From: Hexactinellida sp. DTS-2022
Taxonomy: Eukaryota; Porifera; Hexactinellida
Length of the DNA stretch: 64,000 bases
Assembly: GCA_028753945.1 (NCBI GenBank)
Contig: JAPNXP010000013.1
Coordinates: forward strand, 2,604,001-2,668,000
Direction: 5' to 3'
A program made the position numbers and the translations under genes. This document shows, in pieces, positions 4,571 through 63,577 of the stretch. Under the pieces are notes generated by a model. It was not told the origin of the DNA, searched no databases, and was given only the letters and a program-made list of their open reading frames with translations. Position 1 is the stretch's first letter, and each line of letters opens with the position of its first letter.

Positions 4571-6420
4571 ATTTTCAACTATATACATAGATCCGTTATG
4601 AGAATACTGTAAAAATTTAATAGAATAATATTATACATATATCCAAAAACCAAAATATTTTTAGGCAATTTTTTCTCAAAAATTTTTGAATGTGAATCTA
4701 TTATCAAAATGTTAAAAATGTTCGTATAAAGTTGTTTTCAATAGCTATACATGAATTTACCAATTATACATGGCCTAGGACACAATACTTTGACATTATG
4801 CAATCGTATTTACTCACTTTATCGGAATTAAAAGATTATCATAAGAACTACCGCTTATGGACCTCAAGGGAATGACCACAACAAAATTATTAATTAATTG
4901 AGAATTGATTATTGTCCATTTTCTTCGAGAATTAGAAATTTAGACAATTAATATCGCTATCTATCTACGTACTAGGAAAAAAGATTATAGCTGAGGCTGG
5001 TGTAGAGTTACATAAAATGTTACAACTTCCAGTATTATCAGTAAACAGTAAATAAAAACGTGGCACTGGTTATAGTTCGTTCTACCTAATATTGGAAGTG
5101 AATTCTATTTTCTCTTGCCCCTTCGATATTTATATTCGAAATATGAATAAAACACTAGCAAATGAAGAAAATACTTGCTGTATACTACTTTCTCTAACTT
5201 CCATTCCAACTTTCCAGTATTTCCCATCACGGCATCACCGCATAATATATTTTATTTTTAAAATTTTATTTTAAATGTATCAATTAATGTAGTATTTTTG
5301 GGTAATACTTTTTAAAGCTGAGTCTTATTAAGTAGTATAATCAGGATTTTCTAAAGGATTAGTTGTATTGAGTAGCATGGGCGGTTAATCGGTTAACCAT
5401 GTCGGGAAATCGAATCGAAACCGGAGCCTAAGAACGGTTAATGTTCTTATAACCGGCGTTCTTATATCCAGCATCTACTATATAAGTTATAAAGAAATAC
5501 AGATTCATTGGAATACAAGGAGCTGGATTTATTTGCCTTACTTGGAAGTCAAGTTAGTGGACACTCAGTGTCACTCACCAACAGTGGCGTCGAACTTTCC
5601 ATTTTTCGGAAAATCATCCCGGGACGAGTTATAATTTTTAAAAATTTCACCTAGTATAAAACTTGTTTTCCGAAAAGTTGTTTACCTATAATATTGTGTA
5701 ACTTTTTTCCAAAAAGTCTGTTTTATGTTGATGAAAATTACTCGCTAAATCGCTATCTATTCTGACACAACACATACATTGCATTCTTTAACTTTAACGG
5801 TTCGAATTAAGTTCGGCCGAACCAAAATAGCATAGTTCTTGATGAACTAAATAATAAATAGGTAAATATAGGTTCATCCGAATCAAATAGGTTCGTGCTG
5901 AACTAGGCGCAAAAAAACTTTCCCGCGGGTAAATTTCGACTGTCACCGATTTTGTTAATTAATTACCTTCCGAACAGAGATGATATGGATCGATTTATAA
6001 TTTTTAGTTCAGCCGAACCAATTTGTTGGGTTCCACTCGAATTAACTTCGTCTAAATATGTTCACCCGAACCAAATAGGTTCGTGTCAAACAAACGTATG
6101 AAACTTTTCCAGCGATTTTCGCAGTGGGTCCAAACATGCAGTAAATTTGCTCAAACGAGTTTAGAAACAATAAAAAATAGCAATCCATGATAGATACATC
6201 CAAATTATCACGAAACACCACCAAAAATCACCGAATTTCGGCAGATTTATGCCGGGGCGAAACAGTGGCCGCCCGGCATGATTCTTTCATGCCGGGGCAC
6301 GCCCCGTCCGCCCTGGCATGTTTGACGCCTATGCTCACCAACAGAATATCTTCAGAATTCTCAAATGAATTCTGGTCAGATTTTGGCAACCGATGTACAA
6401 TTAGTGGATGATTCGTGCTA
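4571..6420 (+). repeat. dispersed repeat, copy A (paralog of 16.13-20.08 kb)
   Basis: It aligns block by block with 16130-16302 and 18918-20080: the stretch ending ACATGGCCTAGGAC; the block starting CTACGTACTAGGAAAAAAG; GGTTAATCGGTTAACCATGT; and the tail TACAATTAGTG. Copy A lacks the 2.6 kb hAT of copy B and so shows that hAT's empty site (near 4770). Copy A carries its own hAT MITE (5582-6333), which copy B lacks. No long open frame; class unknown. Confidence 0.75.
5582..6333. mobile_element. hAT-type MITE with 8-bp TSD ctcaccaa
   Basis: Left end CAGTGGCGTCGAAC, right end (reversed) CATAGGCGTCAAAC. A perfect 8-bp duplication ctcaccaa lies at 5574-5581 and 6334-6341. Inside are repeated GGTTCG/CGAACC words on both sides. 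Copy B of the host repeat (about 20003-20020) has the site without the insert. No transposase. Confidence 0.85.
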
Positions 6421-6424
6421 ATTA

Positions 6425-7570
6425 TCATTTAAATCAATATAATTATCGCGAGTTGAAACAATAGTGAAAGATTTAACAAGTTAAACCAATAAATTTATCA
6501 CAAGTTGAAACAATAGAATTTTATTTAACAGTTTTACTGAATCTGAAGTGTGAGGAAATACAGGAGATTGGCACCCCAATTATGGCACAAACATAGGCCA
6601 AATTGAACATTTTCGATTTGCCTAAAGGTGTAGAATTTAATTCACTATCCAAATATGTAAATTTAATCAAGCTCACTATTTATTATTTCATGTTATGACC
6701 AGGCTTGTCAAAAGGTCCCGCATTGTCAGGTCAGGTCAGGTCATTGTGGAAAAAAATCATACAGGTCAGGTCAGGTCAAGTCTTTCACATTCTCAGGTCA
6801 ATTTCAGGTCATTTCAGGTCACTGCATGAGGAATTATAGCAATGCCTAATAGCTTTATATATTATATTTTTATAGTACTACTAGGTACTAGTGCTAGTCT
6901 ACTATATAATATTTATATACTACTAGTAATAGTGGGGTTTATACAATATAAAGCATCAATTTATTAATTGATGTTGCGTTGATCAGCATTTCCCCCGACC
7001 TTTTGCGATGCGCTCATAATTTGCTTGTAGAGACCCTTTAAGGGCGAGATATCAATACTTAAGCGAGTCATTATATGCAAAAAATTACTCCATTCTGAAA
7101 TTAAAGCACGTTAAATGGCATGGCGCGTTTAACGCGCTATGTGTGAAAAGTGGCGTTGATATATCTGACAAATTGAATCCAACTGAGTTGACCCTTTGAT
7201 AGACTAGGTCAGGTCAGGTCAGGTCAGGTCAGGTTATGACCTGACCTTTTGACAAATCTGGTTATGACCCATAATTAGATTAAAATGGTGCTAAAATTAT
7301 TTGATCAAAAATCGTAACCCAAGGTGCAAATTAGACGGTTATACCGCACCTACATGCCAAGTTTCAGCCCTCAATGTATACAAGTGTGGTCAGGGCACCT
7401 GCTACGGAGAAATAATATAAATAAAGGCAGTGAGATTAGAACTGGGCCACTATACTATAGTAAATTCGGCACAGTAAAAATGTTCTGTGGAGAGGATATG
7501 GAAGTATAATAATAATATACCAAAGCACTAAGATTAGAACTGGGCCACTATTATATAGTACAGCTACAGT
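6425..7570 (+). repeat. dispersed repeat R1, first copy, split by a hAT MITE
   Basis: Recurring blocks include AATATAATTATCGC with AAGTTGAAACAATAG, GTGCAAATTAGACGGT, CACCTACATGCCAAGTTTCA and AGATTAGAACTGGGCCACTA. The same blocks recur at 8310-8560 and 9240-9815, and on the minus strand at 37.9-38.4 and 39.2-39.7 kb. No protein of known type; probably non-autonomous. Confidence 0.7.
6700..7260. mobile_element. hAT MITE, AGGTC family, 8-bp TSD gttatgac
   Basis: Left end CAGGCTTGTCAAAAGGTC; right end (reversed) CAGATTTGTCAAAAGGTC. A perfect duplication gttatgac lies at 6692-6699 and 7261-7268. Arrays of AGGTC sit inside both ends (6717-6830 and 7207-7235). The second family member is at 10988-11198. 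Inserted in repeat R1. Confidence 0.9.
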
Positions 7571-7690
7571 AATACCTCGTTTTACGCGGTTTTTTTTTAC
7601 GTGTTTTCGTTTTACGCGGAACAATTTTTTATGACCAAAACTTTTTTTACGCGATCCTCAACTCGTTTTACGCGGTTTATCTATGATTTT
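7571..7690. mobile_element. single end of a pogo/Tc1-like element
   Basis: TA followed by CAGTAATACCTCGTTTTACG, then further GTTTTACGCG units. CAGT plus a coding-strand-like CTCG motif after TA is common in pogo/Tc1-mariner ends. No mate with the opposite orientation was found nearby. Confidence 0.45.
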
Positions 7691-8004
7691 CATACAATTA
7701 ATTCCCTTTTTTATGGATATTTTCGATAATTTTTAAGATTTAGTGGTAACAAAGCGGTTCTACATTTCCAAAAAACAAAAATGATGATTTAGAGATAGTA
7801 GATAGTTAGGGATATGTATTTGTCGTATAGTAAGTTCATCCAAATATATTATTGGTCAAATGAATACATATTTGCTTCAATATTCACACTAGAGATACCC
7901 GGTTGTGGGAGGTACCCGAAGGTGTAGGGTTGCGGTGTGAAGGGAATTTTAATTCCCTTCACAACACAATTCCCTTTCTGTGGGAATTCCCAAAGGGAAA
8001 TACT

Positions 8005-8033
8005 TTCGGCACAGGCTGCAATTTTGGATTTTT
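8005..8033. repeat. half copy of the CTGTGCCGAC palindromic MITE
   Basis: Contains GGCACAGGCTGCAATTTTGG only; the opposite arm is missing. A second half copy is at 8563-8599. Both sit at the same place in repeat R1 where full palindromes sit at 39 kb. Confidence 0.7.
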
Positions 8034-12552: not shown

Positions 12553-12871
12553 CAGGGTTCCGAAAACTAGGTTTTTCAGTCCTCAAGCGGCCTGAAACAA
12601 CATTATGTCTGGCCTGATAGACCAATGGAAATTTGTATCATGTGTGGCCTGAGAGACATTTCTAATTTTAATCTGGCCTGTACACATATACACACTGATT
12701 AATGTACTAGTAAACAGTTTTGACAAGAGTCCTTTATGCACTTTTTGCTTCGAAATTAGTATAGTTCTAGTATTACAACAACTTAATAGTTTTGTTATAA
12801 ATTTCGAAAATTTCTCGATATTGTTTGTGGCCTGAGGAAAAATTTATTAAGATTATGCGGCCGGAACCCTG
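12553..12871. mobile_element. hAT MITE, GGCCTGA family, 8-bp TSD ggatagaa
   Basis: Ends CAGGGTTCCGAAAAC and (reversed) CAGGGTTCCGGCCGC. Perfect duplication ggatagaa at 12545-12552 and 12872-12879. GGCCTGA occurs about five times inside. Confidence 0.9.
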
Positions 12872-16302: not shown

Positions 16303-18917
16303 CAGTGGCGCCGCCAGCTTTTGCAAGTTGGTGTCGCAGCCCAGTCGCAGGTTAACTTCATTGTCGCAGGTTAATTTTTTTCGACAGTCGCTTCACCGTT
16401 GTAGAATTATAATTCACTGTGTCTGTGCGTGTTCCACTAGCTAATAGTACTTACTAGCATGTCTAATGCATACAGAAAATGATGGAAGCCGCCGACAAAG
16501 CATCCAAGGCGACCTGTGTATCTAGCAAACGAAATTGTGTCGATAATGATAGCAGTGGCGGGTCTAACCCAAAGAAGTTATGCATCGTCCCAGAGGCTGT
16601 ATCACAAAATATCAGCAAGAACATCGGAGAAGGTCCTAATCGCCCATCTGTTCGTGATAGCGACTACCCCTGCCGCGTTTTTAGCAATACTCGGAGAAAG
16701 TTTTTGGCGTCTTCGTATTACCCAAATCACTCCTGGATCGAGTACAGTTTGGTCCGGGATGCCATCTTCTGCTTTGCTAGCCGTCACTTTGCTACTACTG
16801 GTGTACTTGTGACTCTGTTCGCCGCTGCTGGGGTTTGTTCGTGGTCCCAACAAGGCCGTATCAACGACCATGCCAGTTCTGAGACTCACAAGGACAGTAT
16901 GTCTAAGTGGCAGGATTGGAAGGGATCCCAAGACAATGGTGGTATAAGGGCTGTGATGTGTGGTGGGAACGAGAAGCTCATTGCAGAGCACCGGCTTTAT
17001 ATGAAGTCCGTAACAGAGGCAGTGATGTTTCTCGCACTGTAGGGTCTGGCATTCCGAGGTCATCGCGAAGGCGAACTGACAGATGAAGTCCGCAACACGA
17101 ACAGTGGGAATTTCAAAGAGCTGATGAGTCTAATAGGGCGTCACAACTCCATCGTGAAGTCGAAGCTGACTGGCATGAAGAACGTCACTTACACTCACTC
17201 CGACATACATAACTTTCTTATCCAGACGATGTCCACCATGGTGCGCGAGGAAATTTCTTCGGAAATTGCCACATCGGGGGGGACATTTTCTTTGCAGTGC
17301 GATGAGTCCAAGGACATCAGTAAAACTGAACAGATAAGCATAGTGGTTCGTTACGAGAAAAACTGCCAGCCCACCGAAGAATTGCTCGACATAGTTCCTG
17401 CCCAGGGTCTCACTGCGGTGGATCTCGCTGCAGTGATTGTGTGGATCCTCACGCTCCATAAACTAGACAACAAGCGATGCTGTGGACAAACCTACGACGG
17501 CGCGGCGGTCATGTCAGGCATTCGAAATGGAGTCCACAAAAAGATCTTCGAGTCAGTCCCTCACGCATACTATCCGCACTGTTTCAGCCACAGGTTGAAT
17601 CTGGCCATGGTTGACGCATCGAGGGCATCGCCGAAGGTTGGGGACTGTCTCGATATCCTGTCGTCCATATATAACTACTTCAGTAGTTTGGTGATCAATG
17701 CTGAATTCATGGATCAGTAGGGCAAATTGGCGGCTGCTGAGTCGAGCAACAAGGTTTTCAATCTTAAACATCACGCTGACACACGCTGGATATCTCGCCA
17801 CGAATCCTGCAGGGCGGTCATGAGAACTCTGTCAGCTATCATGAACACCCTGGAGTACTTCGCCGAGGCGTTCGACTCTGACCGTCGCGTAAAGGCGACT
17901 TCAATTATTGGCATGATCGATACACTCTTTGTAGCACACCTAATCCTCATCACCCGGGTCTTAAAAGAAGCGAAGTTACTCACCAAACATTTACAGAGAG
18001 AACAAATCAAGTACGGAGTGGCCATCGACCTTGTAAATGCCTTGAAATCGACACTTACTGACCTCACAAAACCGGTAGAATTCGACAAGCTCTGGACTGA
18101 TATCGTGTCCCTGTGTGACCGAGCGGAGGTACCACAGCCAGTGGAGCGCAAGCGTAGGAAGGTACGCACAGATAGTCGGAATAACACCAAGTACGGCACG
18201 AAGGATGACTACCTAAAACATGCTCTGATCCCATTGGTCGAGGCCGTTAACTGAGAGCTCGCCCGCCGGTTTAACGGCGACGCCAATGTGCTGTACTGCG
18301 GAGTTTCGGCCTTCACGCCGGAAAATCCCCTCTTCCTGGATATTGAATCTATTGTCAAGTTCGGAGAGCAGTACAGTGTCGACAAGGAGGACATTACCGA
18401 CGAGATGAAAACCTTGAAGAAGCTCTATACCCGCAAGTGTGCCGATGAGTCATTCGATGTTCCCTCCACACTGTGTGACTTCATGAAGTTCCTCAATCGC
18501 TACAAGGAACCATTCCACGCTATGGCCGGGCTATGTACAGTCTGTGTGAGCCTAGGAGTGTCCTCTGCAGGCTGTGAGAGGGCGTTCAGCTGTATGAAGA
18601 GGATCAAGACATACTTGAAGAGTTCAATGAGTGATGAGCGCCTCGGTGGACTAGCCGTACTAAACGTAAATTCTGGGAAGACCACTGATCTCGATCTAGA
18701 TGCAGTAGTCACTCGTTTTGGACAAAGGGAACAGCGTAGGATAGAACTGTTTTAGTAGTATTGATCAGGATTTTGAGACTACACGTATTTAGGAATATCA
18801 ATTATCTATCTAGGTAGGTAGTTATCCGTTGGGTGTCGCAAATCTTGTCGCAGAGTCAGTCCCAGACTCCCAGGTGTCGCAGCTGCGATACCTGCGACAC
18901 CCCTGGCGGCGCCACTG
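16303..18917 (+). mobile_element. hAT transposon with near-complete transposase, TSD cctaggac
   Basis: Ends CAGTGGCGCCGCCAGC and (reversed) CAGTGGCGGCGCCAGG. Perfect 8-bp duplication cctaggac at 16295-16302 and 18918-18925. Copy A of the host repeat (near 4770) shows the same site once, without the insert. Subterminal TGTCGCA/TGCGACA words cluster at 16332-16390 and 18832-18905, as expected for transposase-binding sites. Confidence 0.95.
16479..18755 (+). pseudogene. hAT transposase (ZMYM1/TTF-type), three in-frame stops
   Basis: One frame of 758 codons interrupted only by TAG at 17040, TAG at 17718 and TGA at 18252. Order: a TTF-type zinc-finger region (residues about 65-150, with WIEYSLVRDAIFCF), a DUF4371-like RNase H core, and the C-terminal hATC dimerisation block. 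Likely catalytic residues: Asp 275 in LQCDESKD, Asp 340 in TYDGAAVMSG, Glu 700 in SAGCERAFS; HCFSHRLNLAM is also present. The second Cys of the usual FCFxCR motif is Ser here. The first stop sits where relatives have Gln (LAL-stop-GLAFRGH), fitting CAG to TAG. No frameshift is seen, so decay looks recent. It would excise and insert elements with TGTCGCA-type ends. Confidence 0.92.
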
Positions 18918-21012: not shown

Positions 21013-21800
21013 TAGGAGTGTTACCCGGTTCTCAGATACCCGGGTAAATACTCGGTTCACAAAATCGAATGAGATTCGATACCCGGGTAATTTAATCCGA
21101 ATACCCGGGTATTGCGCGCAATAATTTATATAAAAGGTTTCGGATTACGCTATTGAAGCAATAAAAATCAACAAATGGCGTTTTTAATTTAAAAACGCTT
21201 AGAATACCAGTGCAAACTGTAAACATAACAACATTATATTATAATGGCCTTATAAACTGTAGACTACTAAATTAAGGTCAAGTTTGAGTGACTCATCCTT
21301 AAGATCCCTTAGTATTTCTAAAGTTTACAGTAAATAGTAAAATTTCAGATTATTTTAGAATAATTATCATTTAGTTAGAAAGAGATACATAGAAGTTAGA
21401 ACATTTTCTTATCAACAACATCAATACAGTCGAAATAGGATTATTTTGTCATCGGATTAGTTTGTCTTATCGGATTATTTTGTCGAATTATCCATGAAAA
21501 GAATTGGACAAAATAATCCGATTTCGACTGTATTTCTCATATTTAATTTAGAATTTACTATACTAATATTAAATAAATAGAGTCATTTATGTTAATTTGC
21601 TAAAGGGTCTTTCTTACATAAATTGAAAAATCCATGATACGATGTGTATACAATGAGCTTACTATTTATTTAAGGCATGTTGAAAAGTATTCTATGTACT
21701 TAAAAATAAATTACCCAGGTACCCGAGTATATCCGGGTATTAGCTTGGCAAAGGATTCGAGAACCGGGTATTAGAATTTGAGGATTCGTCGGCACCTCTA
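21013..21800. mobile_element. hAT-type MITE, ACCCGGGTA family, TSD gtacatac
   Basis: Ends TAGGAGTGTTACCCGG and (reversed) TAGAGGTGCCGACG. Perfect duplication gtacatac at 21005-21012 and 21801-21808. ACCCGGGTA words lie inside both ends. A TA-flanked MITE (21427-21530) is nested within. Confidence 0.85.
21427..21530. mobile_element. pogo-type MITE, TA-flanked
   Basis: Arms start CAGTCGAAATAGGATTATTT, the right arm being its near-complement; TA at 21425-21426 and 21531-21532. Confidence 0.85.
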
Positions 21801-23782: not shown

Positions 23783-24046
23783 CAGAAACGGAACCGGTCG
23801 GGTCGGGTCGGGTACCGGTCGGAATTTTGACCGGCCGGTCGAACTTTGACCGGCCGGTCGAACCCTGACCGGCCGGTCGAGATCTCTATATGATCTATTC
23901 GATATCATAATATCATAATTTGTTTTCTATTATATATAAATTATTGCTAGCTATGATTGACCGGTCGATCGGCCGGTTGGGGCGGGTCAAATTTCCAACT
24001 GCACCGGTCGGGTCGGGTCATGAAAATCCCGACCGGTCCATCTCTG
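23783..24046. mobile_element. hAT MITE, GGTCG family, TSD tagtatgg
   Basis: Ends CAGAAACGGAACCGGTCGGG and (reversed) CAGAGATGGACCGGTCGGG. Perfect duplication tagtatgg at 23775-23782 and 24047-24054. Arrays of CCGGTCG/CGGGT lie on both sides. Nested in the TACTCAA element. Confidence 0.9.
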
Positions 24047-26150: not shown

Positions 26151-26956
26151 CCGTATTTCCCCGAATAAGCGCCAGGGGCTTAAATAAGCGCCGGGTCAAT
26201 AAAATGACATTGGTATGAAACAGGCCTGGGGTAATAGTAATATGTAATAGTAATTGTATTAGTAACGATTACATTTTAGAAGTAATAGTAATAGTAATAA
26301 GTAATAGTGTTTCAAATAGGATGTAATAGTAATAGTAATAGTAATAGAACCTATTGTAATAGGAATTATCTATTACAATTCTACAACTTCGGACTGGCTT
26401 ATTTGATTTTTCGTGAAGAAATAGGAAGTTGTTAAAATAAATTTAAGGCAAAATGATTATCGATTTGAATTTGTCACTTTATTGAAATTAGTTGTTTGCT
26501 TAGGTTAGATAATATATGTTTTGTTTGTGTGGGATAATCAATTAAAATAATAAACTTCAGACATTCTGAATCATAGCAGAGTCTTAGTAAATGTCTAGTA
26601 ATTTGTAATAGTAATATTAAAAGTAATAGTAATAGTAATAGTAATAGTAATATATTACATATTATTATAATGTAATTGTAATAGTAATAGTAATAGGAAG
26701 AAATATAAGTAATAGTAATAGTAATATATTACATTTTAGAGTAATTGACCCCAGGCCTGGTATGAAACAATTTATACACGTTAGTTAATTACTGTAATGT
26801 AATTCCCTTGATTTTGGCAACTTCGGTAGGTATACTGTTGGTGGAAACCATTAGATCCGACTTAAATATTATATTCTGTATTTTTCACAAAAATTTCAGG
26901 ATAATTTTGGCCCACGAAAACAATAAGCGCCGGGGCGTTTATTCGGGGAAATATGG
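26151..26956. mobile_element. TA-flanked MITE in Gypsy RT, carrying a hAT MITE
   Basis: Ends CCGTATTTCCCCGAATAAGC and (reversed) CCATATTTCCCCGAATAAAC; TA at 26149-26150 and 26957-26958. Without the nested 539-bp hAT MITE it would be about 259 bp. AATAAGCGCCGGG words lie near both ends. Confidence 0.85.
26221..26759. mobile_element. hAT MITE, TAATAG family, TSD gtatgaaa
   Basis: Ends CAGGCCTGGGGTAAT and (reversed) CAGGCCTGGGGTCAAT. Perfect duplication gtatgaaa at 26213-26220 and 26760-26767. Long GTAATA arrays occupy both flanks of its interior. Third level of nesting in the Gypsy element. Its ends resemble those of the TAATCG family at 28861. Confidence 0.92.
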
Positions 26957-28619: not shown

Positions 28620-29500
28620 CAGGGATGGAAACAGCCAAGCTGTTAACAGCCACTAGCTGTTAACAGGAAAGGAAAATCGAAGCTGTTAACAGCAAGATGC
28701 TGACCAATGCAATAATTGAATATATTCGTATAATCAATTAGTTTCAAATTTCACTGTTTCTAAATACGATATACAATTCGAATTTAAACATTTTTGAGTA
28801 TAACTTTCTTTTCTGGTCCCTTTTCCTTAATTTTTACTGATACAATTTTTGAATTTGAACCAGGCTTGGGGCTGATTACGATTACAATCGTAATCGATTG
28901 TAATCGATTACAACTTTTCCTGTAATCGTAATCGTAATCGTAATCACCCCCTAGTAATCAGCCCCAGATATGGCACCAGGCCCCCCCAAATTTTCCACAA
29001 TAACTTTAAATAAGGATATAGTTTGAGGCTTCGCTGATCTCATTGCACCTCCAAATATATATCCGGCCCCTACAAATAATTCTTGGTGGCTACCCCCATG
29101 CACACGGGCATTATTTTTCGTGCGCATGAAACTCCGGGGCTTAATCGAAACAATCGTAATTGCATCGTAAAGAAATGAATTGTAATCGATTACAACATTT
29201 CCTGTAATCGTAATCGTAATCATAATCAAGCTTTTCCTGAAGGATGTAATCGTAATCGTAATCGTAATCACTCACTAGTAATCAGCCCCAGGTCTGATTT
29301 GAACAGCTTGAATTGGTTGCTAACAGCTTAAATTGGGCTGTTAACAGCTAGAATTGGCTGTTAACAGCTTAAATTGGCGTAAATTAAAAACTTAAAGGCG
29401 ACTTAAATGCAGTTAAGTTTTAATGCCAATTGTGGACGAATTCTTGGCTGTTAAGATCAAACAGCCAAAATGGCTGTTAACAGCAGATTTACCAACCCTG
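28620..29500. mobile_element. hAT MITE, GTTAACAGC family, TSD aacttac(a/c)
   Basis: Ends CAGGGATGGAAACAGCC and (reversed) CAGGGTTGGTAAATCTGC. Duplication aacttaca at 28612-28619 versus aacttacc at 29501-29508 (7 of 8). GCTGTTAACAGC palindromes repeat on both sides. It hosts the 28861-29296 element. Confidence 0.85.
28861..29296. mobile_element. hAT MITE, TAATCG family, TSD atttgaac
   Basis: Ends CAGGCTTGGGGCTGATTACG and (reversed) CAGACCTGGGGCTGATTAC. Perfect duplication atttgaac at 28853-28860 and 29297-29304. GTAATCG arrays on both sides. An extra copy of the right end near 28950-28974 suggests a composite of two units around an unrelated 29.0-29.14 kb core. Confidence 0.9.
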
Positions 29501-33967: not shown

Positions 33968-34364
33968 CAGTGTTCGGAAAAAATCGCCCTTTTCTAGAAA
34001 AGACCGGGGCAGGTGGAAATAACCGTTTTTTTCCGGAAAAACATCCATTTTCTGGATATTTCTGCCTTTTTCTATTGACTGGCCTACGCGTAATTAATAT
34101 AGGTATTTCGGTGTATTTAGTGGTTAATCCACTAACCTTTGTATAAGATTAGGATTCCACTCTCAAAAGTCCAAAATTTATCAATCGTTGGCACTAGAAG
34201 TGTAGTATCTCTAAAAATATCTGTCTCTTGCATATAGAAGCTGACCATAAATGGGCCTATAGTGTTGCCATATTTGTTTTTTTCCTAATTTACTGCACTT
34301 TCCGGGGTGGAAAAAACCGGGTTTTCCGGGGATTTTCCGGGGTAGTCTTCTTTGGCAAACACTG
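33968..34364. mobile_element. hAT MITE, CCGGAAAA family, TSD ct(t/c)ataat
   Basis: Ends CAGTGTTCGGAAAAAATCG and (reversed) CAGTGTTTGCCAAAGAAG. Flanks cttataat (33960-33967) and ctcataat (34365-34372) agree at 7 of 8. TTTCCGG/CCGGAAAA words on both sides. Confidence 0.8.
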
Positions 34365-34880: not shown

Positions 34881-35036
34881 CGTGGAAACAAAACGGATGT
34901 AAACCAATAATTGTGAGCACGATGAAACATCAGTGGACTCATCAAGTTGCAATGAAAATAACTTCAAAGTTCAAACTTGTAACTGTTTCACAATCTATTT
35001 CAGAGTGGACCATGGTCAACATTGGTGACCCATGAC

Positions 35037-35263
35037 CAGGGCCGTAGCCACCAAAATCAATGTGGTCAGATTAATTTGACCATCTGACAGAGTGGTTAGA
35101 TTAATCTGACCAACCTTACCGATTTGTAAGGTTAATCTGACCAACCTGACAGAGTGGTCAGGTTATTCTGACCAACCTGACTGAGTGGTCCATTTTGGGA
35201 AATTAATCAACCAAAAGTGGTCAGGTTGAAACCTGACCAACCTGACCAGTGGCTACGGCCCTG
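35037..35263. mobile_element. MITE with CAGGGCCGTAGCCAC ends, TGACCAACC family
   Basis: Ends CAGGGCCGTAGCCACCAAAA and (reversed) CAGGGCCGTAGCCACTGG. atgac flanks both sides (5 bp), but the target is itself a TGACCCA array, so the duplication length is ambiguous. CTGACCAACC words inside. Confidence 0.82.
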
Positions 35264-35571
35264 ATGACCCATCGCATTCGTGACCCATGACCCATTGACC
35301 CATTGACCCATGACTCATCGAGTGACCCATTGGCCCATCAAGTAACGCTTTGACCCATCGTGTTACCCATTGACCTTTTTAAATATCTATTCTTTAATAT
35401 CGAAACATTATGTAACACATTCCGACTTACAATATATGGATGATGCTTGTCAATTAATTAATCTTTGTGGACTTCTAATATCATAGAAATACTCTGTAAT
35501 GTGTCTGGGTTAATTTGACTCGTACTATAACTGGACGAACATCGAAATTCCAAATCGGTCATGGGTCATGG

Positions 35572-35880
35572 CATAGGAGCCAAAACTTTCCAGCGCCAGG
35601 GGGAGTGTAAGTTTACATTTAAATGTGAAAGGTAAAAACGATGCCTATGGTGGCTAAAAATCAATTATGTTCGAAGAATATAATTGTATACATATATAAA
35701 TCATTCAATGTTATTCAGAAAAATATGGAAAAAAAACTTCTGGAATATATAATTTTCTATGGGTCTATGACTCTATGTTCTATACGTATAACATTAAAGA
35801 AAATGTCTAATATACCCTCCCTGAAAAAAAACAGGGAGGGTCAAACCCCCTGACACCCCCCCCCTCTTTCGGCACCTATG
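35572..35880. mobile_element. CATAGG-type MITE with 8-bp TSD ggtcatgg
   Basis: Ends CATAGGAGCCAAAACT and (reversed) CATAGGTGCCGAAAG. Perfect duplication ggtcatgg at 35564-35571 and 35881-35888. Nested in the TGACCCA element. Confidence 0.85.
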
Positions 35881-36110
35881 GGTCATGGGTCACAGAGCCG
35901 TGACCCATGACCCATCTGACTAATCAATTTAAGTAACCCATCTGACCCATGACCCATGACCCATCGACCCATGGTCCACTCTGATCTGTTTTAGTATATT
36001 ATCTGACATTTCAGAGATCCTTCGCTCGACAATATTATTTGATAGTGGAATCTAATATGACATAATAACAAACGCATCTATAAAAACTATCCGGACGATG
36101 TCCTTCGCAC

Positions 36111-42126: not shown

Positions 42127-42815
42127 ATTATTAAATCTCGATTGTTGTGTGTGTGTGTGTGTGTTTGTTTGTTTGTCCGGATTGTAATAAAGTGATGGGG
42201 GAATAGAAACCGCATTTATATATGAGATATAAACTAACTTTCAAATGTTATAATTGGTAAACAAATGTTATAATAGGTAAACAAGTATGCTAAACACGAA
42301 TTTCGCATTTACAAATTTATGATATGAATATTTATTGTTGTTGTTTACACAAAATAGGTAAACAAATTTATGAAAATTCAAAATCAACCTAGAAGTTAGC
42401 TTTCAACGGGTATTATAGGTAAACAAGTATGCTAAACACGAATTTCGCATTTATAAATTTATAATATAAATATTTGTTGTTGTTGTTGACACAAAATAGG
42501 TAAACAAATTTATGAAAATTTAAAATCAACCTAGAAGTTAGCTTTCAACGGGTATTATAGGTAAACAAGTATGCTGAACACGAATTTCGCATTTATAAAT
42601 TTATAATATAAATATTTGTTGTTGTTGTTGACACAAAATAGGTAAACAAATTTATGAAAATTCAAAATCAACCTAGAAGTTAGCTTTCCACGGATATATA
42701 GGTTAACAATTATGCTGATTTAGTAAGGCCGCATAGCGGCCGTTAACTTGAGGTGCGTAGCACCGATCTGTCGCAAAGCGACCGAGACCGAAGGGCTCGT
42801 TGATTATAAAGCGTA
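42127..42815 (+). mobile_element. tandem-array element (142-bp units) with hairpin cluster, copy 1
   Basis: Order: ATTAAATCTCGATTGTTG, a TG microsatellite (42149-42168), a lead-in, about three units of 142 bp (GTATGCTAAACACG at 42285, 42427, 42569), then consecutive hairpins GGCCGC-ATA-GCGGCC, GGTGC-GTA-GCACC, GTCGC-AAA-GCGAC and CGAG...CTCG at 42727-42799. An inverted copy is at 62112-63215. Central tandem array plus terminal hairpins recalls Helentron-associated (HINE/MINE-type) elements; no Rep/helicase seen. Class is inference. Confidence 0.75.
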
Positions 42816-46662: not shown

Positions 46663-49600
46663 TCAGGAATCGAACTTTTTCAATTTCCGCTTTTCTAATC
46701 CCTTTAAAGTAAGGCTCGAATTGTAATTCTTGACAAGATTTGCAATTAGACAATTTGCTTCACTTCGAACGAGACTTGATAGAATGGTTGAACCTTTCAC
46801 ATTACAAGGACAAGTAGTTCTCCAACCTTCAAAACCACTATCAAGACCAGTTAGGGAGCCAAAAGCAAGTGTTACTAAAATCTTTCTAGTTTGACCTTCT
46901 ATCAACAGGGACATAAGTTCACACTATTACTTTGGATTATAGTTAGAATCTTCCAAACAATAATTAAAGATTCCAATGCAAGCTCTGAAGGATACTTTAG
47001 ACCACCACGACAGAAAGCTGCAGTAGTTGGTACCGGAATTCGAAGGATTCATCTACTAGAATATCTTTGTCGATAATTAAAATATCTCGGCATATTAAGT
47101 ACTGTGAAGAATGCTTAAGGTATTGGTAGGCAGCATACCCAGCAATAAAAGCTAGTGACTGGAGTGTTGGGGTATCGCACTCAATGGCTGATACATCTGA
47201 TAGAGCATCAAGAAAAGGATCAATGTCAATTTCTGTATCTGTATGTACGCTATAAATGGGAGAGAAAGACTGAATAAATTCCTCCATAGAAATCTGGCTG
47301 GATGGTTGAGTGTTGGTATTAGAAAATAGAGTTAATAGATTGGAGATTTTCAAACGACGTTCAGCTTCTAAAATTTGAAGGTATGAAACATGGTAATTTG
47401 ATCCAGACATCATCCGATAAAGTCCAAAATGGTGCTCTAGTGGATCTGTCTGTAAGAAACGTGTTAAAATGTAAGCATATCCACACTGTCCAGTTAGATA
47501 ATTAACTATTTGAGGGAGTACAATGCACGCGTGTCTTAAGCTTGTAAAAGTTTGCTTGCTCAATTTGCCATCTTTCAAAGAGTGTGATTCCCAAGTCTCT
47601 AGCCAATTTACTATCCTGGTTAAAAAGATAAAGCGTTCGTCATTAACTGTGAAAGGGCGACATGAAGAATCATTTAAACGAATATGCTTATATGGAACAT
47701 TTACATTAAACATGTTCCATAACGTGAGTAGAATTTTGACGAAACTAGAGGTGTTTGTTTTCAACTCACTGCAACGTTGATCATTTTGGAGAGCTAGAGC
47801 AGCAATCGTGGACTCATGGATTACTTTCAGACTAATTTGACATTTTGGCGTTCCAATACAGTTTAAATGTCAACCGCGGGGCAAATTTTGCAAGACTCTC
47901 CTTCTCTGAGCTATAAAGGGCGCGTACATCTTGGAAAGAAGCGCAGCACACCTTTAAAGGAAATGAACAATAATCAAATCCAATATCGTCAAAATCGGGG
48001 TAGAAAAAACACTTATAACTGGACTTCAGATTTAGCCAATTGTTTCGTACAGATTTCAAAATATGGACGAAATCGAAAGTGAGATACAGAGGCCTGTTAG
48101 GAACACAAGGATGAGGTACAAATGTTTCAAGCTTACCAACAGGAGAGAATAGTTTGAATAACTTGACGTTAAGAGGATAGTTATCTGTTGAGATTACATC
48201 CACACATAAACCACAAGTTTCGATATCTTTAATACAAGCGAGTATGATGGGGAATATCTTCTCAGCGGAAAGAGAGGCACATGGTAATAGACGAACTATA
48301 GTAGATCATTTTTTCTGGAGACTTGATACCATAATAGCGAATACAGTCTTTATTGGATCTTCTGGGCTTAGACTAGAACCATATATCTTGCCTCCTTTAT
48401 ATGTGACATCAGATTTTACGTGAAATTCGTCCATTTGCATAACGATATGTTTCGAAGCTTCAGTGAAAGAATTTGTCGCTTGCTTGCAGAGGCGGCGCCA
48501 CGCTGGGGCAAGGTGGGGCAAATGCCCCACCTGGCCTTCGGCTTGCCCCACCACTGGTGGGGAAAGCCTTATCAATAGCTTAGAATTTATTTGGGCGCTT
48601 TTGAAGTATTTTTCGTTCATCTTCTTAATAGGACGCTTTTTGAAGCCAATTTTGTAGCATGGATTACGTTTGAATTGGTTTTCATGTTTTGAACCTTGTT
48701 GTTACTGTTAATCTTACCATGAAAAACTTTATGGCGTCGCCTACCGCTGCCGAAACTACTAGCTCAGCCTCAAGCTCATGCTCTATCGATGTGACCGGTC
48801 CTCCTGCCTATCGGACAGACGGATGGGGCTCATATAGTACTAGCACTATTGTGTCAATTTGTGTGTCTACCAGACTCTACCTATATTTTTTGATAGTGGT
48901 TTTATAGTTAAACATTTTGCCCCATCTCAAATGTCCCTTGCCCCGGCCAGCCCCATCGCTCATTTTGGTCTCGCGCCGCCACTGCTTGCTTGAGGAAAGG
49001 AAAGAATTCACACTCAAGTCCGAATGAAGAATACAACTTCTCCAAAGTGTTGACATGAGGCAGAGATAGACAAGCCATTTGTTGAAGATACTTATAACAT
49101 GCTGGTGAAATTAAATGTGCTTTAAGTGCCATAACCTGTGTGAGGATGTTGTACCTCCGCCTGTTTTTGGGTACAATACTGTTCTCAAGCTGACATTGGA
49201 AGAATTGAAGCCTGGATATTTCGGGGGAATCAGTTAATTAACTCTAATTCACTATTAGATGAAAGTACTTTGTTAATGAGTAGTTGGATATTGTCCTTCG
49301 CTAAAGATAAAGTCTCATTAACGGTCTTTGAAACAGATTCAGTGGACAGAACCTACGAGGGGATATAGAAATCTCACAGATAATTGATTCAAGGTGTCGT
49401 ATATCGCTGATTGAGCAAATAGGAATTGGTAAAATTTCTCCATTACGATAAGCTCTAACTGACAAATCGAAGGACACTAATATATGGGTGTTGACAATGA
49501 TATTGTGTTCTGTCAGTAGAGGTAGCATATAAATTAGACTATGATCATCTGGGTACCATAAAGACCATGTTTTAGGTAGGGAAAACAAAGGTAACTTAGC

Positions 49601-53029: not shown

Positions 53030-53499
53030 GTTTGAATGCAGATAATAAGCCAACTTCACTATACTTGGCATTTTTTATAATATTTCTAGCCACGGTACGT
53101 GGTATATCGATGGTATAATGAGGTATAACCAATTCTACAAAATTAGGAATTGTTTCGGTATAACAATCTATACTTGCATTACACATATATTATACCTATA
53201 ACACCTTAATACTATAAATAGACTTGGTATATTGTGGTATAATATTGGTATAATCATAGCCAACTCTATATAAGGCCTAACAGTAACTTTGAAATTATGG
53301 ACTAGGGATGCATCAATAGATGGTAATATTTAACCAACCACAATATTTTAACCCATATTTCTATTTATAATAAACCACATGTTTTTGTTACAACTACCCT
53401 ACTAAATACTAAGTTTAATTTTTTACTAATTATTAGCCTCTTTTTTATTTATTTTGTGTCATTATCTTGTCCCCTACTATTCCTATTCATTTCTAACTA

Positions 53500-53659
53500 C
53501 AGTTGAAACCGGATATTTTTGACAATCGGATATTTTTAACACATTTTCTTGTAAATAATTAATTATTGTTGTTGTTGTAAAATCGGGTATTTTTAACAAT
53601 CGGATATTTTTAACAAATTTTCGTTAAAAGAATGTGTTAAAAATATCCGGTTTCAACTG
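53500..53659. mobile_element. pogo-type MITE, CCGGATATTTTTAACA family, copy 2
   Basis: Same arms as 40780-40955, reversed; TA at 53498-53499 and 53660-53661. It lies 19 bp before the transposase ATG of P-like copy 3, so it may have changed that gene's 5' region. Confidence 0.9.
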
Positions 53660-53678
53660 TATTAGATTCGTTTACATT

Positions 53679-55568: not shown

Positions 55569-55897
55569 GTATCGATAAACGTGAATTTAAAAAAATCTCA
55601 TGAATTATTGTTTACCATTACATAATATTTATTGTTGATAGCACTTAATTTCTTTATAGAGGAGTTCCAACACATGTTGTGTTTCGTATATGTGTTGTGT
55701 ATTACACTAGTTTAAATGTTTGTATTTTGTATGTAGGTTGACTTATTATAATTAAAATATATTAATTCCAATAAATGTATGGACTTATTCTTCACGGATA
55801 TACTGGGTTGGGAAAATATTACTTGAGATGCACTTAAGTGCTTTTATGTTCATTATATCAACTGTTAGGCCTTATATAGAGTAGCCTATGGTATAAT

Positions 55898-57347
55898 CTA
55901 GGTGTAATGTAGATAAAATTTAATAAATAATTTAAGCACAAGGTAGTATACCGAAACTATATACTAATTTGGTATAATTGCTTATACCTCATTATAGCAT
56001 CGGTATACCACGTACCGTGTTTCTAGCTCATGTCCAACAACATTGGTCTTACCATATACATATGTACGAGCAACTTGTTGCATCGATTAACTAGGTAATA
56101 AATTTTAGATTCAATTATTATTTTAGTTAGTACCTTCATTTTAAACAAGCTTTTGTTATTCGTTGAGTTCTTGAAACACAAATTGACGGCAATAGCCCTA
56201 GCCATTCAAATTTAAGTTTTTAGAGTTATAATATTTTATGTAAATAATCAATCAGTGTTATCTTTTTGGTACGATTGCAATTTAAATAAAGGTTTATTTC
56301 GGTAGACAATTCGCCTAGCCCCTCATTTTCGTTAGGAATTGTTTGTTGCTACAAAATAAATTATCATACGCCGAAAAATAAAGCTATGAATTTATTCTTA
56401 TATCTGATATACAAGACATAACAATAACTATTTACTGATAAAGTTTAAACGAGATGGTAGTTTAATTTTCGCTGAGGCTTTGCGCTGAACAACACTGATT
56501 CTACAGGTCAAAGATAATCCTCAAACTTGCACTCGAGACTGAAGCAGTGAGGCCCTCGATAGTGTTTCTAGCAAATTCCGTAAGAAATAAATGAAATGTC
56601 TTTGGGTAGTATAAAGCAGTAATTCAAACTGGCTGCAAATAGGCTATGCTTTATATAAATAAGTTATCCTATGTTTTAAGAAACGAAGATAAGCTGTTAG
56701 ACAGCAATAAAGCTATACAAAGAACAACGAAGCTAGGATGTCAAAAGAACGCTTCTCCACAAGTGTTCTCACTAGGCCTCTTTTGGGGGTACAGTACTCC
56801 TTATTGCGATAATGCACTTCTCTATCATGCCTAAATAGACATAATGTACACCCCTATAGTGCCTAAACAAACCTATTGTACCCCATATAGTAATCCATAT
56901 TATGATATAATGAATATTTATGGGAATAATAGTAATGATTCAGCATTCGGAGTCATTGATGATTTCTAAGTTAAATAATGTAAAAATCACTAGCACTACA
57001 ATAATTGTGTAATATTATTTGAAAATGGCAGGAGTGTTGCGATCGAAAGAATCGCTATTGGTAATTTTATAGTAGAATTATCCCGTAATTCCGTAAATAA
57101 CCTCGTAATTCGGAGTTAAAATATTTGCCCACAAAGTGGACAATAATCTTCCTTATACCTTAGGGGTATAAATATTTTTGAGCGCGCATTAGGCACTGAG
57201 TGCATATCCCCCAATTACAAAATCTTGGCGAGAACCCTGCTCCACAAACATCAACTAAGTGAGGCTGTCAGAGAGGAACAAAGGTATATGACTAGAAAAT
57301 AAAGTAGGCTGTGAGACAGCAACTAAGAAACACCAAGAACAAAACAC
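55898..57347. other. no recognisable gene
   Basis: AT-rich; scattered frames (56023-56205 minus, 56646-56834 plus) without support. Confidence 0.45.
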
Positions 57348-58179: not shown

Positions 58180-58661
58180 CGTGACCTTCGTTATATAAGG
58201 CCTTACTACTACTCCGAACCATGGATTACTTAAAGGCCATTGATTATTAGCTGATATATCTTATCTCAATGGCTAGTAATGACAGACTTGAGAAATGCAT
58301 TATAATTATATAGGAAGTTAGGGACATGATATCAAGGCATACATAACACCCTTTAGAATGTGATTTACAACCATTTAATTACGTAATCGCATAGCCTACT
58401 ATATACAGGCCATTTCACTGAGCCAAATGCGGCTGGACCAGGGATAAGAAAAAGGGGATTTTCTTATATACCCATAATGTAATATAAATATTTTGATTAA
58501 AACTAAATGCAAATCCGGGTTAGAAATATAGTTAACGAGATTCATCTATGTAAATATTAGCTATTCTAATTACAATTTCTCTTTAATTCAATCATACTTT
58601 GCCTTTATAATGTTAGCTCCTTGTTTATTAACTTTATTGAATTTATTTATATCCTGGAATC

Positions 58662-59580
58662 ATGCCCAACTGTTCTGTTCCCAGATGTGCTATGGATACT
58701 ATAGAGATCATAGTGGTGTTGCAGTATTTCACATTCCTTCTGGGCCGGAGGACATAAATTATATATGAAAAAAAATTCTGCATAGAGATGGTGAGTATAT
58801 CTTTACTAGTTGGACAAGCTTAATTAATTACTTTACCAGTTTTCCTTTTAACCTAAACATCACTTATATACTTTAATTAAGAAATAACTTATATGTAGAC
58901 CGTCTACATATAAGGATGCTCTTTAATTAATCATACGTAATTATGTAATTATATGCTAGATAATCACACACTAAAAAACATTTCGTTTGTGCTAAACACT
59001 TTGATCCTGATGATATCATTGACACACAAACTTATCTTGACATGATGGCCAAACGAAGATACGACCAATAAAAGCTACATTGAAGAAAGGCGCAGTAGCT
59101 AAATACCTTCCTGGTGGCCCTGATCGTCTTAATCACACTAGCAAGTATCAGCGGCTTGATAGAGACAAAAAGGAGCATGATTTACAGATCCGAGTATGTC
59201 AAGTTGTGCTAAATGTAAAAGTTTTGTATTTTAATATGTTGTATGTTATTGTATATAGGCAATGAAACAGAGTGTTGACGTGTACGAAGAAGAACAGAGA
59301 AAATTCACTGTTTCTAAACTAGATGACATAACCATTAAATTATCTAACATTAAGATCCCCAAGAATGGATTTTTGGCACCTTGATGCCACATTTATATTG
59401 TCAATCTGACATCAAATACAGTAGTGATTTCAGTCAAAAGATTATTACTATTGACAAGTTTCTTCAAGTTAATTTCCTCATGAACTGGCAAGCTTCCCCC
59501 GACTCTAACCAACGAACTAGATTAGACATTCAATTATATCTGGCATCATTATGTATAAGTGGCAAGAATAATTATGTATA
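58662..59580 (+). pseudogene. THAP-domain transposase N-terminal relic (copy 4)
   Basis: MPNCSVPRC (THAP Cys pair) at 58662; after a frameshift VAVFHIPSGPEDINY; a possible donor GTGAGT at 58791; then VCAKHFDPDDIIDTQTYLD (Cys-x2-His) near 58985 and KGAVAKYLPGGPDRLN (59092). A later block FTVSKLDDITIKLSNIKIPK (about 59310) aligns with the linker of copy 1. No catalytic motifs follow. The THAP parts are separated by about 180 bp, which may be an intron. Confidence 0.7.
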
Positions 59581-59689
59581 AGTGGCAATAATCAACTCCT
59601 TTCCAAGAGTTGATTAATCAATCAATGTCCATATCTATCGGTTTTCAAACATACATCTGATTGAGAGATTCGCAAGGGTTCCACAATTA

Positions 59690-60240
59690 TAACACTTTAA
59701 ACTCCTTATAAATGTTCAAAATTTAAACATGAGCATGTCCATATCTAGTTGAATGAAATATATCAAATTAAAAATGGAATGTTTACACATTCCTCGGTTG
59801 CCAGGGAAATGTATGTTTCTAAAATGAGCCATAACTCAAAAACTATAGATATTATGTAAACTATGCTTTACTGATCTATCCCAAATTGGTAACCACCTAT
59901 TCATTGATGATAGATTTTCTAGGCCTAACTTCAATATTCTTTGAGATAATGAGATTATGGCACTTTATTCTTTATATGGTAATACACTCATTATCTCAAA
60001 TATTATTGAAGTTAGGCCGAGAAAATGTACCATCAATGAATAGGAAGTTGCCTATTGCGGATAGATCAGTAATAGCATAGTTTACATAATATCGATAGTA
60101 TTTGAGTTATGGCTCATTTTAGAAATATACATTTCCCTGGAAACCGAGGAATGTGTAAACATTCCATTTATAATTTCGATATATTACATTCAACTAGTAA
60201 TGAACATTTATAACGCGTTTAACTATGTTAAAAGCAGGCT
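59690..60240. repeat. large foldback palindrome
   Basis: Arms of about 260 bp meet near 59960. The left arm holds ACACATTCCTCGGTTGCCAG, GAGCCATAACTCAAAAACTA and TTTGAGATAATGAG; the right arm is its diverged complement. One arm alone occurs at 44460-44760. Confidence 0.8.
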
Positions 60241-60719
60241 ATAAAAACACGATAATTCAAAAGAAAAATAGCGATTACGTAATTAAATGGGGATATATCA
60301 CATTCTAAAGGGTGTTATGTATGCCTTGATATCATGTTCCTACCTTCCTATAGAATTATAATGCATTTCTCAGGTCTGTCAATACTAGCTATTGAGATAA
60401 AGATATGTTAACTAATAATCAATGGCCTTTAAGTAAACCATGGTCCAGCAAAATCTACTCAGTAGTAGGCCTTATATAATGCAGGTCACGCCTCCATTCA
60501 AATTTCCAAATATTACAGCAACTGGCCTAGGAAAGTTTTGCCAATTTTAGAAGAGGGCGAACGCTCATTAAAATTTAATTAGGCTGTTCTCCTAGGATGG
60601 AAAAATTTGAATAATTTAACTCGTAACACCTACTAATTAATTAATATAAATAACATGATAGTATTTCTTGCTATGGATTCTGAACTAAGAACGTAGTGCA
60701 ATGCTTGGTTAGTATACTC

Positions 60720-62111: not shown

Positions 62112-63150
62112 TTACGAGCCCTTCGGTCTCGGTCGCTTTGCGACAGATCGGTGCTACGCACCTCAAGTTAACGGCCGCTGTACGGCCTTACTCCTCACAT
62201 TTTCTACCATGGAAATGGTAGATAGGGACGTTATGATTTTGATTTTCATTAATTTGTTTACCTATTTGTGCAAACAACAACAACAACAAATACTCATATT
62301 AGAATTTTATAAATGCGAAATTCGTGTTCAGCATACTTGTTTACCTATAATACCCGTTGAAAGCTAACTTCTAGGTTGATATTGAGTTTTCATTAATTTG
62401 TTTACCTATTTTGTGTAAACAAAACAACAAATATTCATATTAGAAAATTTAAACGCGAAATTCGTGTTCAGCATACATGTTTACCTACAATACCCGTTGA
62501 AAGCTAACTTCTAGGTTGATTTTGAATTTTCATTAATTTGTTTACCTATTTTGTGTAAACAACACAACAAATATTCATATTATAAAATTTTAACCGCGAA
62601 AATTGTGTTCAGCATACTTGTTTACCTATAATACCCGTTGAAAGCAAACTTCTAGGTTGATTTTGAATTTCATTAATTTGTTTACCTATTTTGTGTAAAC
62701 AACAACAACAAATATTAATATGATAAATATATAAACGCGAAATTCGAAATCAGCATACTTGTTTACCTATAATACCCGTTGAAAGCAAACTTCTAGGTTG
62801 ATTTTGAATTTCATTCATTTGTTTACCTATTTTGTGTAAACAACAACAAATATTAATATGATAAATTTATAAACGCGAAATTCGTCTTCAGCATACTTGT
62901 TTACCTATAATACCCGTTGGAAGCTAACTTCTAGGTTGATTTTGAATTTTCATTAATTTGTTTACCTATTTTGTGTAAACAACAACAACAAATATTAATA
63001 TGATAAATTTATAAACGCGAAATTCGTGTTCGGCATTCTTGTTTACCTATTATAACATTTGTTTACCAATTATAACAATTGAAAGTTAGTTTATATCCCA
63101 ATATTAATTGCGGTTTCTATTCCCCCATCACTTTAATATAATCCGGACAA

Positions 63151-63181
<31 letters not shown>

Positions 63182-63215
63182 AACAACAATCGAGATTTAA
63201 TAATATTAGTTATAT
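62112..63215 (-). mobile_element. tandem-array element (about 140-bp units), copy 2, inverted
   Basis: Same order as 42127-42815 but on the minus strand: hairpin cluster at 62114-62190, then about six units (GCATACTTGTTTACCTATAA-type block at 62331, 62471, 62612, 62753, 62891, 63032), then the AC microsatellite (63152-63175) and CAACAATCGAGATTTAAT. Unit number differs from copy 1 (three). Confidence 0.78.
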
Positions 63216-63420
63216 AAAAGGAAACATTTGGTCACTTCGTTTATACCCCACATAAAATTTAGTGGGTCATTTAACCAAAAGCAGCTCGCAACCCCAATAT
63301 TTTGGAAATCCAGGTAGTTACATATTCCAATTATGGCTCTGTCGTGAATTTGAATTTTTCAGGCGTAGTAAAGGAAATTTAGGAGGGAATGTGCGTCACC
63401 AAAGTGGCTTAGGGCAGAGG
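63216..63420. other. no recognisable gene
   Basis: Short stretch between two elements; the open frame starting 63262 extends into a MITE and is not credible. Confidence 0.4.
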
Positions 63421-63577
63421 CATAGGCGTAGACCCACCCGGCCACCCGGCATGGGCCGGGTGGCCCAAAGGGGCTACCCGGCCGTGAATGTAGCGGTCCC
63501 GGGGTCGATTGGGCCGGCCCCGGAACCTTCGGGCAGGGCGGCCCAAAGGCCCGGCGGGACCATTTCCGACGCCTAAG
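63421..63577. mobile_element. CATAGGCG-type GC-rich MITE, TSD ggcagagg
   Basis: Ends CATAGGCGTAGACCC and (reversed) CTTAGGCGTCGGAAATGG. Perfect duplication ggcagagg at 63413-63420 and 63578-63585. Very GC-rich, with GGCCGGGTGGCCC and CACCCGGCC palindromes. Confidence 0.88.

Follow-up and report, generated by a model that had tools for sequence, protein, structure and literature searches.

Subterminal word arrays and transposase lineages of hAT elements in a hexactinellid sponge genome

We analysed a window of 64,000 bp from Hexactinellida sp. DTS-2022 (assembly GCA_028753945.1, contig JAPNXP010000013.1, positions 2,604,001 to 2,668,000), which is part of contig 5 in the 112-Mb assembly of 18 contigs, and compared its hAT-like transposable elements with coding hATs of the same genome. 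Many of the families, most of them miniature inverted-repeat transposable elements (MITEs), repeat a single short word in an array just inside their ends. The words agree with the transposase lineages, and in most of the element pairs compared they persist where the surrounding DNA no longer aligns. That hAT transposases bind repeated subterminal words, and that MITEs can be deletion derivatives, is already known. Here each word is probably the site of its own transposase's BED finger, a predicted site arrayed at both ends, and the MITEs are probably deletion copies keeping tip and array.

Word arrays, transposase lineages and coding partners

The initial annotation named 13 elements of the window as having transposon-like ends, duplications and arrays, and this description held. 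Clear ends were found in all 13, with an exact 8-bp target site duplication (TSD) in ten and a 7/8 match in three (Table 1); the right ends of the elements at 21013, 33968 and 35001 were corrected to 21800, 34364 and 35983. Scanning the window for CA..TG ends that match in 9/12 or more positions of the terminal inverted repeat (TIR) and have exact 8-bp duplications on both sides, we found 14 elements, the P-like element at 53091 among them. The same scan on 30 second-order Markov sequences gave no element in 26 and one in each of the other four.

As the measure of an array we counted the most frequent (top) hexamer over the outermost 150 bp of the two ends taken together. All 13 elements exceeded their own dinucleotide-Markov shuffles, ten of them at p 0.005. 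As a second control, 300 pseudo-elements placed elsewhere in the window gave a median top count of 4 per 300 bp, with 95% and 99% points of 7.0 and 9.6 and a maximum of 11.5. The array that had been proposed for every family was strong in nine elements by this measure, but weak in four, and five more elements with hAT-like ends (5582, 22319, 35572, 40511 and 63421) had no significant array; the tip-plus-array layout is therefore common, not universal. The word of 35001 is lopsided between the ends (1 and 9 copies), with 10 interior copies. Among the ends examined, the first word copy began within 20 bp of the tip in 40 of 56. The coding hAT at 16303 had been credited with the same layout through the word TGTCGCA. 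Its duplication (CCTAGGAC on both sides), a TIR of 15/16, the DUF4371 (E 3.3e-15) and PF05699 (E 7.4e-06, over the cut-off) domains in Pfam and the words themselves bear this out, but its word count is one of the four weak ones. The element is not intact, and three in-frame stops break its reading frame.

A genome search with PF05699 gave 638 first-look candidates; 150 of these were scored and all 150 matched. The coding sample comprised 56 loci (30 search loci, 20 larger stretches and six others), some of them near-copies. Of the 56 coding loci, 29 had a 3' hexamer count of at least 8 in 160 bp, as against none of 150 non-element control stretches. We built a tree of the 56 dimerisation domains, which has 79 columns and is weakly resolved, and word labels were assigned by hand to 41 loci, with 15 left unclear. 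On this tree the 32 loci with the eight multi-member words needed 8 changes, where the minimum is 7, while 200 shuffles needed 22.1 on average and 16 at the lowest. A single group held the six ATCCGG loci and one unclear locus, and the CAACTC loci, two in number, were sisters. Array similarity was correlated with domain identity (Mantel r 0.75, p 0.0002) over 33 loci with a count of at least 6, a level also reached by 8 of the 150 control stretches. By both measures, the suggested test of whether words track transposase lineages was positive.

Since descent alone could produce such agreement, the words were masked to test the surrounding subterminal DNA. The test used word-richest windows of 20 loci in six word groups, grouped by the author; near-copies (L003, L021, L006, L009 and L015), L001, L025 and the TATTAC/mixed and CCCGCA loci did not enter it. 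Among the 23 same-word pairs with less than 80% domain identity, 19 gave no alignment of the masked DNA above shuffles, and the elements tested retain 6 to 17 word copies in 160 bp each. Often, then, the word has been conserved while the DNA around it has not.

This persistence argues against random microsatellite growth, which the initial annotation had set as the alternative and in which a TIR word would expand by slippage and conversion and be carried along, unread by the transposase. The AGGTC, TAATAG and ACCCGA arrays are strongly one-directional, AGGTC and TAATAG are partly tandem, and the array of the coding AGGTC element L051 has expanded inward (29 AGGTC beyond the terminal 200 bp), as such growth would predict. 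Against it stand the AAGTAC, CCGGTC and ATCCGG words, which occur in both directions with variable spacing, the rarity of interior copies (at most three of the top word in 15 of 18 elements) and the agreement of word and lineage. We consider microsatellite growth an unlikely explanation of the arrays.

Three MITE families of the window, GTACTT, TAATAG and AGGTC, have the tips, the word and homologous subterminal DNA of coding hATs, with the interior lost, and the parents of 61281, 26221 and 6700 carry hAT domains. MITE 61281, an internal-deletion relative of the BED-hATs L066+L002 and L036, aligns over its positions 1-218 to L066 (92%) and over 211-453 to the adjoining L002 (87%). MITE 26221 is made of two ends joined, 1-261 aligning to L063 (89%) and 258-539 to L020 (86%), with the junction at 258-261. 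MITE 6700 aligns to L051 at both ends and at 190-525 (84%), and 10988 also aligns with L051. L051 is 3,603 bp long, with TSD ATCTCGGG, a hAT domain and the AGGTC word. L057, a sister of the L066+L002 element that also has the GTACTT word, is 2,561 bp long, with TSD TAGGTAAG, tip CAGGGTTGGGTTCAAGTA and an open 644-aa frame containing zf-BED (E 1.3e-08) and Dimer_Tnp_hAT.

For the remaining families the comparison gave less. The GGGGCAA MITE at 48487 resembles the coding locus L062, which has seven GGGGCA in 400 bp (at most six in shuffles), by tip and word only; at 1e-6 it aligned to none of the loci compared, L062 included, and 12553, 23783 and 28620 found no match among the loci compared at the same threshold. 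The TGTCGCA word sits on the window's own coding hAT at 16303. End patterns were counted in the genome on forward and reverse strands, with the reversed pattern as control. At two mismatches or fewer we found AGGTC 248 times (control 8), GTACTT 466 (1), TAATCG 517 (1), TGACCCA 682 (7) and TAATAG 93 (0), and at three or fewer GTTAACAGC 220 times (33), GGTCG 344 (39) and CCGGAAAA 180 (47). A search of the genome for the doubled TGTCGCA gave 0 matches.

Several candidate coding elements were rejected. L053, from the first 100 of the 517 TAATCG ends, was discarded as TAATCG partner: the hAT it holds is a separate one that sits within a TAATCG copy and has ends (CAGAGGTGGATCTAGG / CAGGGGTGGATCTAGC) and a TSD (ATTGTAAT) of its own, with domain scores below the Pfam cut-offs. 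This hAT, at 486-4946 of L053, is inserted in the word array of the TAATCG MITE, and word arrays may be insertion targets for other hATs. L054, from the first 100 of the 682 TGACCCA ends, has TGACCCA ends and an exact 8-bp TSD; the four scanned of its six listed frames of at least 80 aa had no hAT domain, and a MULE-like assignment of its open reading frames (ORFs) found no Pfam support up to E 10 and was not used. In L034 the AACTCA element at 648-4464 was not accepted as coding, the coding hAT being the nested ATCCGG element at 877-3438. The outer ATTCCC element of L058 (199-4086) was likewise set aside, the BED-hAT lying in the inner AATTAC element. No matching duplication was found around this inner element, nor for L056.

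The three homologous pairs bear on another explanation, in which a few transposases that read mainly the shared tip mobilise many families and the arrays only tune efficiency. Tips are indeed common to different words: the pattern CAGRSYTGGGKTCAA stands ahead of AAGTAC, AATTAC and AAATAC alike, and a hand count of 72 of the 375 counted places with this tip gave AAGTAC 45, AATTAC 21, AAATAC 6 and AACTAC 0. The five array-less elements of the window fit it as well, and in the available part of the Hermes study (PMC10368747) the complexes of left and right ends differ in vitro. Each of the three paired MITE families, however, goes back to a coding element that bears the family's own word, and the words are conserved beyond the surrounding DNA. 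We take this explanation as rather doubtful, yet as the most serious of the three rivals considered here.

The words could also be host-factor binding sites, kept for element transcription or local effects and not for the transposase. AGGTCA and TGACCCA resemble nuclear-receptor half-sites, AGGTCA-type words are present, and arrays might serve as promoters at the 5' end. On the other side, the arrays stand at both ends and are retained in MITEs that have no gene, and the words differ among lineages within one host and follow the transposase tree. A host factor seems to us very improbable as the cause.

One-letter word series and the BED finger

In one clade of BED-hATs (clade I) the words form a series of one-letter steps. 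Its tips are like CAGGGTTGGGTTCAA, with the pattern CAGG[GC][CT]TGGG[GT]TCAA. A clade tree was built without the BED columns from 19 of the 22 clade-I loci, namely AAGTAC 7, AAATAC 4, AATTAC 4, TATTAC 1, mixed AATTAC/TATTAC 2 (L023 and L044) and AAGCCC 1 (L010). L011, L013 and L017 were left off for unclear arrays or short rows, although L011 has AATTAC 12 + 4, and L001 and L009 were labelled from separate readings because other elements displace their arrays. Wherever both arrays were readable, the same word or mixture was found at both ends, except in L010, which has AAGCCC at the 3' end only. The two ends hold 18 + 17 copies of AAGTAC in L057, 15 + 13 of AAATAC in L056, 15 + 10 of AATTAC in L058 and 12 + 13 of TATTAC in L020.

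On the clade tree the seven labels, outgroup included, needed 6 changes, which is the fewest possible; shuffled labels needed 13.7 on average and none of 200 was as low. AAGTAC (98/100), AATTAC (85/81) and TATTAC with the mixed loci (100/100) each formed a single group, and AAATAC was found in two places, in L001/L056/L006 and in L016 beside AATTAC (99/98). AAGTAC and AATTAC are each one letter from AAATAC, and TATTAC is one letter from AATTAC; AAATAC is perhaps the older word. Two window words belong to the series, GTACTT being AAGTAC and TAATAG being CTATTA(C), and TAATCG, which is (C)GATTA(C), is a one-letter neighbour without a known partner. The initial annotation had read all the words of the window as diverged binding sites; within this one clade they do look like diverged variants of one site, but between clades they look unrelated.

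In the part of the Hermes structure paper available (PMC10368747), the BED domain of Hermes reads AAGT, with base contacts by S66, N67 and R70, plus Q64 and the main chain, and with C51, C54 and H71 as zinc ligands. The catalytic and C-terminal parts of L057 are homologous to those of Hermes (E 6e-20), and the BED profile matches ZBED1 (E 0.001). The fingers here have C-x2-C-x16-H spacing with S66-N67 invariant. Residue 70 is Lys in five of six AAGTAC elements, and Leu or Thr, never basic, in the eight other readable fingers (AAATAC 3, AATTAC 2, TATTAC or mixed 3). Residue 62 follows the word in all 16 readable fingers: Leu/Met with AAGTAC, Thr with AAATAC in both lineages, Tyr with AATTAC and Gly/Ser with TATTAC or mixed arrays. 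The finger sequence STKGL and the word CCGGGA are common to L060 (the same as L030) and L061, whose domain identity is 27%; the BED of L014 and L015 was unreadable. The suggested test of whether word changes track BED changes gave the patterns at residues 62 and 70, but no significant signal in a scan of columns. We consider this covariation a lead rather than proof, and a specific one, since residue 70 is named by the Hermes structure.

A number of observations weigh against matched word and finger. Four of the 23 same-word pairs still align after masking, including the sole cross-lineage AAATAC pair, and any feature passed on with the element would in part be expected to track lineages as the words do; the masked test answers only for the persistence of the word. 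With the unclear loci included, all 18 groups need 25 changes on the tree (least possible 17, shuffled mean 38.6), and AAATAC, AATTAC and CCGGGA need three changes each on the short-domain tree and are not single groups there. No array was found in several coding hATs of the DUF4371 branch (L040, L043, L048, L049 and L059), nor in L028, L032, L037 and L050. The AGGTC arrays are mostly one-directional 5-bp tandems, so slippage contributes. As to the finger, the BED piece of L057 alone found no Hermes chain in the PDB at E up to 10, and L035, an AAGTAC element, has Ile at residue 70. Columns separating the four words perfectly numbered 2 of 21 in the BED core and 12 of 501 outside it, which is not significant as a scan; there were about three independent word changes, and several fingers are near-copies. 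Finally, an own transposase lineage for each family, as first proposed, agrees with the three pairs joined by homology and with the coding TGTCGCA element, but seven of the 12 word families of the window lack a shown coding hAT partner. For five of the seven the first 100 end places were listed (TAATCG and TGACCCA, with candidates examined, and GTTAACAGC, GGTCG and CCGGAAAA, of 220, 344 and 180), and GGCCTGA and ACCCGGGTA were never searched genome-wide. Because of these two unsearched families and the GGGGCAA pairing without DNA alignment, our confidence is slightly lowered.

Elements of the window and neighbouring features

The coordinates of the 13 elements are given in Table 1.

Table 1. 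Word-bearing elements of the window, with their duplications and array statistics (p, top hexamer against shuffles; control, top hexamer count against 300 pseudo-elements).
Position	Strand	Element and word (copies at the two ends)	TSD	p	Control	Relation
6700..7260	.	MITE, AGGTC family	exact, GTTATGAC	0.005	above 99% point (11)	internal-deletion relative of coding hAT L051
10988..11198	.	MITE, AGGTC family, words almost end to end	exact, ATCCCAGC	0.005	above all	
12553..12871	.	MITE, GGCCTG weak (4 + 1)	exact, GGATAGAA	0.05	inside 95% range (5)	
16303..18917	+	coding hAT (DUF4371 + Dimer_Tnp_hAT), GTCGCA (3 + 4)	exact, CCTAGGAC	0.005	inside 95% range (7)	
21013..21800	.	MITE, TAG ends, ACCCGGGTA	exact, GTACATAC	0.005	above 99% point (10)	
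23783..24046	.	MITE, CCGGTC/GGTCG (8 + 5)	exact, TAGTATGG	0.005	above all	
26221..26759	.	MITE, TAATAG (= CTATTA)	exact, GTATGAAA	0.005	above all	internal-deletion relative of BED-hAT L063+L020
28620..29500	.	MITE, GTTAACAGC (AACAGC 12)	7/8, AACTTACA/AACTTACC	0.005	above all	interrupted by 28861
28861..29296	.	MITE, TAATCG (= GATTAC) (10 + 10)	exact, ATTTGAAC	0.005	above all	nested in 28620
33968..34364	.	MITE, CCGGAAAA (GGAAAA 3 + 4)	7/8	0.015	inside 95% range (7)	
35001..35983	.	TGACCCA-word element, superfamily unsure	7/8	0.005	above 99% point (10)	contains nested 35572
48487..48984	.	MITE, GGGGCA (4 + 2)	exact, CTTGCTTG	0.01	inside 95% range (6)	tip and word resemble L062
61281..61829	.	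MITE, GTACTT (= AAGTAC) (12 + 12), TIR 16/16	exact, ACTATTAT	0.005	above all	

Elements of the P superfamily have 8-bp duplications, CA ends and a repeated word just inside both ends. The element at 53091-56019 has a TIR of 16/16 (CACGGTACGTGGTATA), TSD TTTCTAGC and GGTATA words (8 + 6) in the terminal 200 bp. It does not look like a hAT and shows the same tip-plus-array layout, so the layout is no proof of hAT. Its ORF at 54304-54834, which had no Pfam match, looks P-transposase-like. At 46997-48701 there are ORFs similar to those of this element, which we take by eye to be P-like; they adjoin the MITE at 48487-48984 and are apparently interrupted by it.

Inside the 35001 element lies a MITE with CATAGG ends (35572-35880), and its duplication GGTCATGG resembles the word of the host element. 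The element at 58335-60326 has a TIR of 16/16 (AGGCATACATAACACC) with palindromic flanks (TGATATCA / AATGCATT) and probably belongs to another superfamily. An open frame at 845-1828 contains a THAP domain (PF05485, E 5.5e-12). Two tandem arrays of 141-142-bp units, at 42269-42716 and 62234-63054, are by eye apparently one sequence on opposite strands.

Proposed mechanism and comparison with known systems

The window may be considered a sample of a large and long-lived set of hATs and deletion-derived MITEs, usually with a CAG... tip, 8-bp duplications and, in many families, a single-word array directly inside the tip. By analogy with the AAGT repeats of Hermes, the word would be the site of the N-terminal BED zinc finger, and the array would bring several oligomer protomers to each end. 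Since MITEs retain both tip and array, they would still be mobilised by the matching transposase, which would explain their persistence. Binding, strict matching and the manner in which arrays were rewritten are what we infer from these comparisons.

In clade I the site would have drifted by single letters, from AAATAC to AAGTAC or AATTAC and from AATTAC to TATTAC. At both ends the entire array would have followed; this requires either a new founder word that is duplicated locally again and again or gene conversion, plus a changed finger. As a result, a single genome would hold families that each have a transposase-end specificity of their own. Judging from sequence, we might tentatively speculate, with the odds somewhat against it, that zinc finger and arrays of 20-35 sites co-evolved stepwise, the ends being rewritten in concert, with L023 and L044 as intermediates and with each new lineage isolated from the old MITEs. 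If true, this would be transposon speciation by binding-site switching and would offer a natural BED recognition code, in which residue 62 goes with the word and residue 70 is basic where the word has G.

Many lineages with their own word, several of them with both coding copies and MITEs, together with one-letter neighbours and mixed intermediates, are found in one genome. Two questions can thereby be put to a direct test: how an array of many sites changes its word while the element stays mobile, and which base is read by which BED residue. If matching is strict, the genome would also supply orthogonal transposon-transposase pairs and offer a reason for the family-by-family amplification of MITEs. 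The genome may record the joint change of transposases and the marks they recognise.

A full-text search of the literature, judged by titles and the beginnings of abstracts, returned no stepwise word series within one genome. As far as that literature goes, what is new is how densely lineages are packed in a single genome, together with the one-letter series, its mixed intermediates and the MITEs paired to two of its steps. In maize Ac/Ds, according to the available part of one report (PMC3260210), non-autonomous elements have the tips and some of the subterminal repeats of their parent, and one class consists of internal deletions; that is one system, whereas here there are a dozen or more words per genome. 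The work on hAT-19/CGGBP (Yellan et al. 2021, PMC8097297), in the part available, describes hAT-type DNA-binding domains of diverse specificity, with the motifs of four hAT proteins matching the subterminal regions of their own elements. It measured binding across species, mostly for domesticated genes, whereas the present series is stepwise, borne by the elements, within one genome and read from sequence alone. The closest likeness is to Hermes (Lannes et al. 2023, PMC10368747, as far as its available text goes), with which the elements here share the C-x2-C-x16-H spacing, S66-N67, a basic residue at 70, many short words at both ends and AAGT within AAGTAC. Unlike in Hermes, there are many lineages with differing words, dense arrays homogenised at both ends and, for some of them, paired MITEs.

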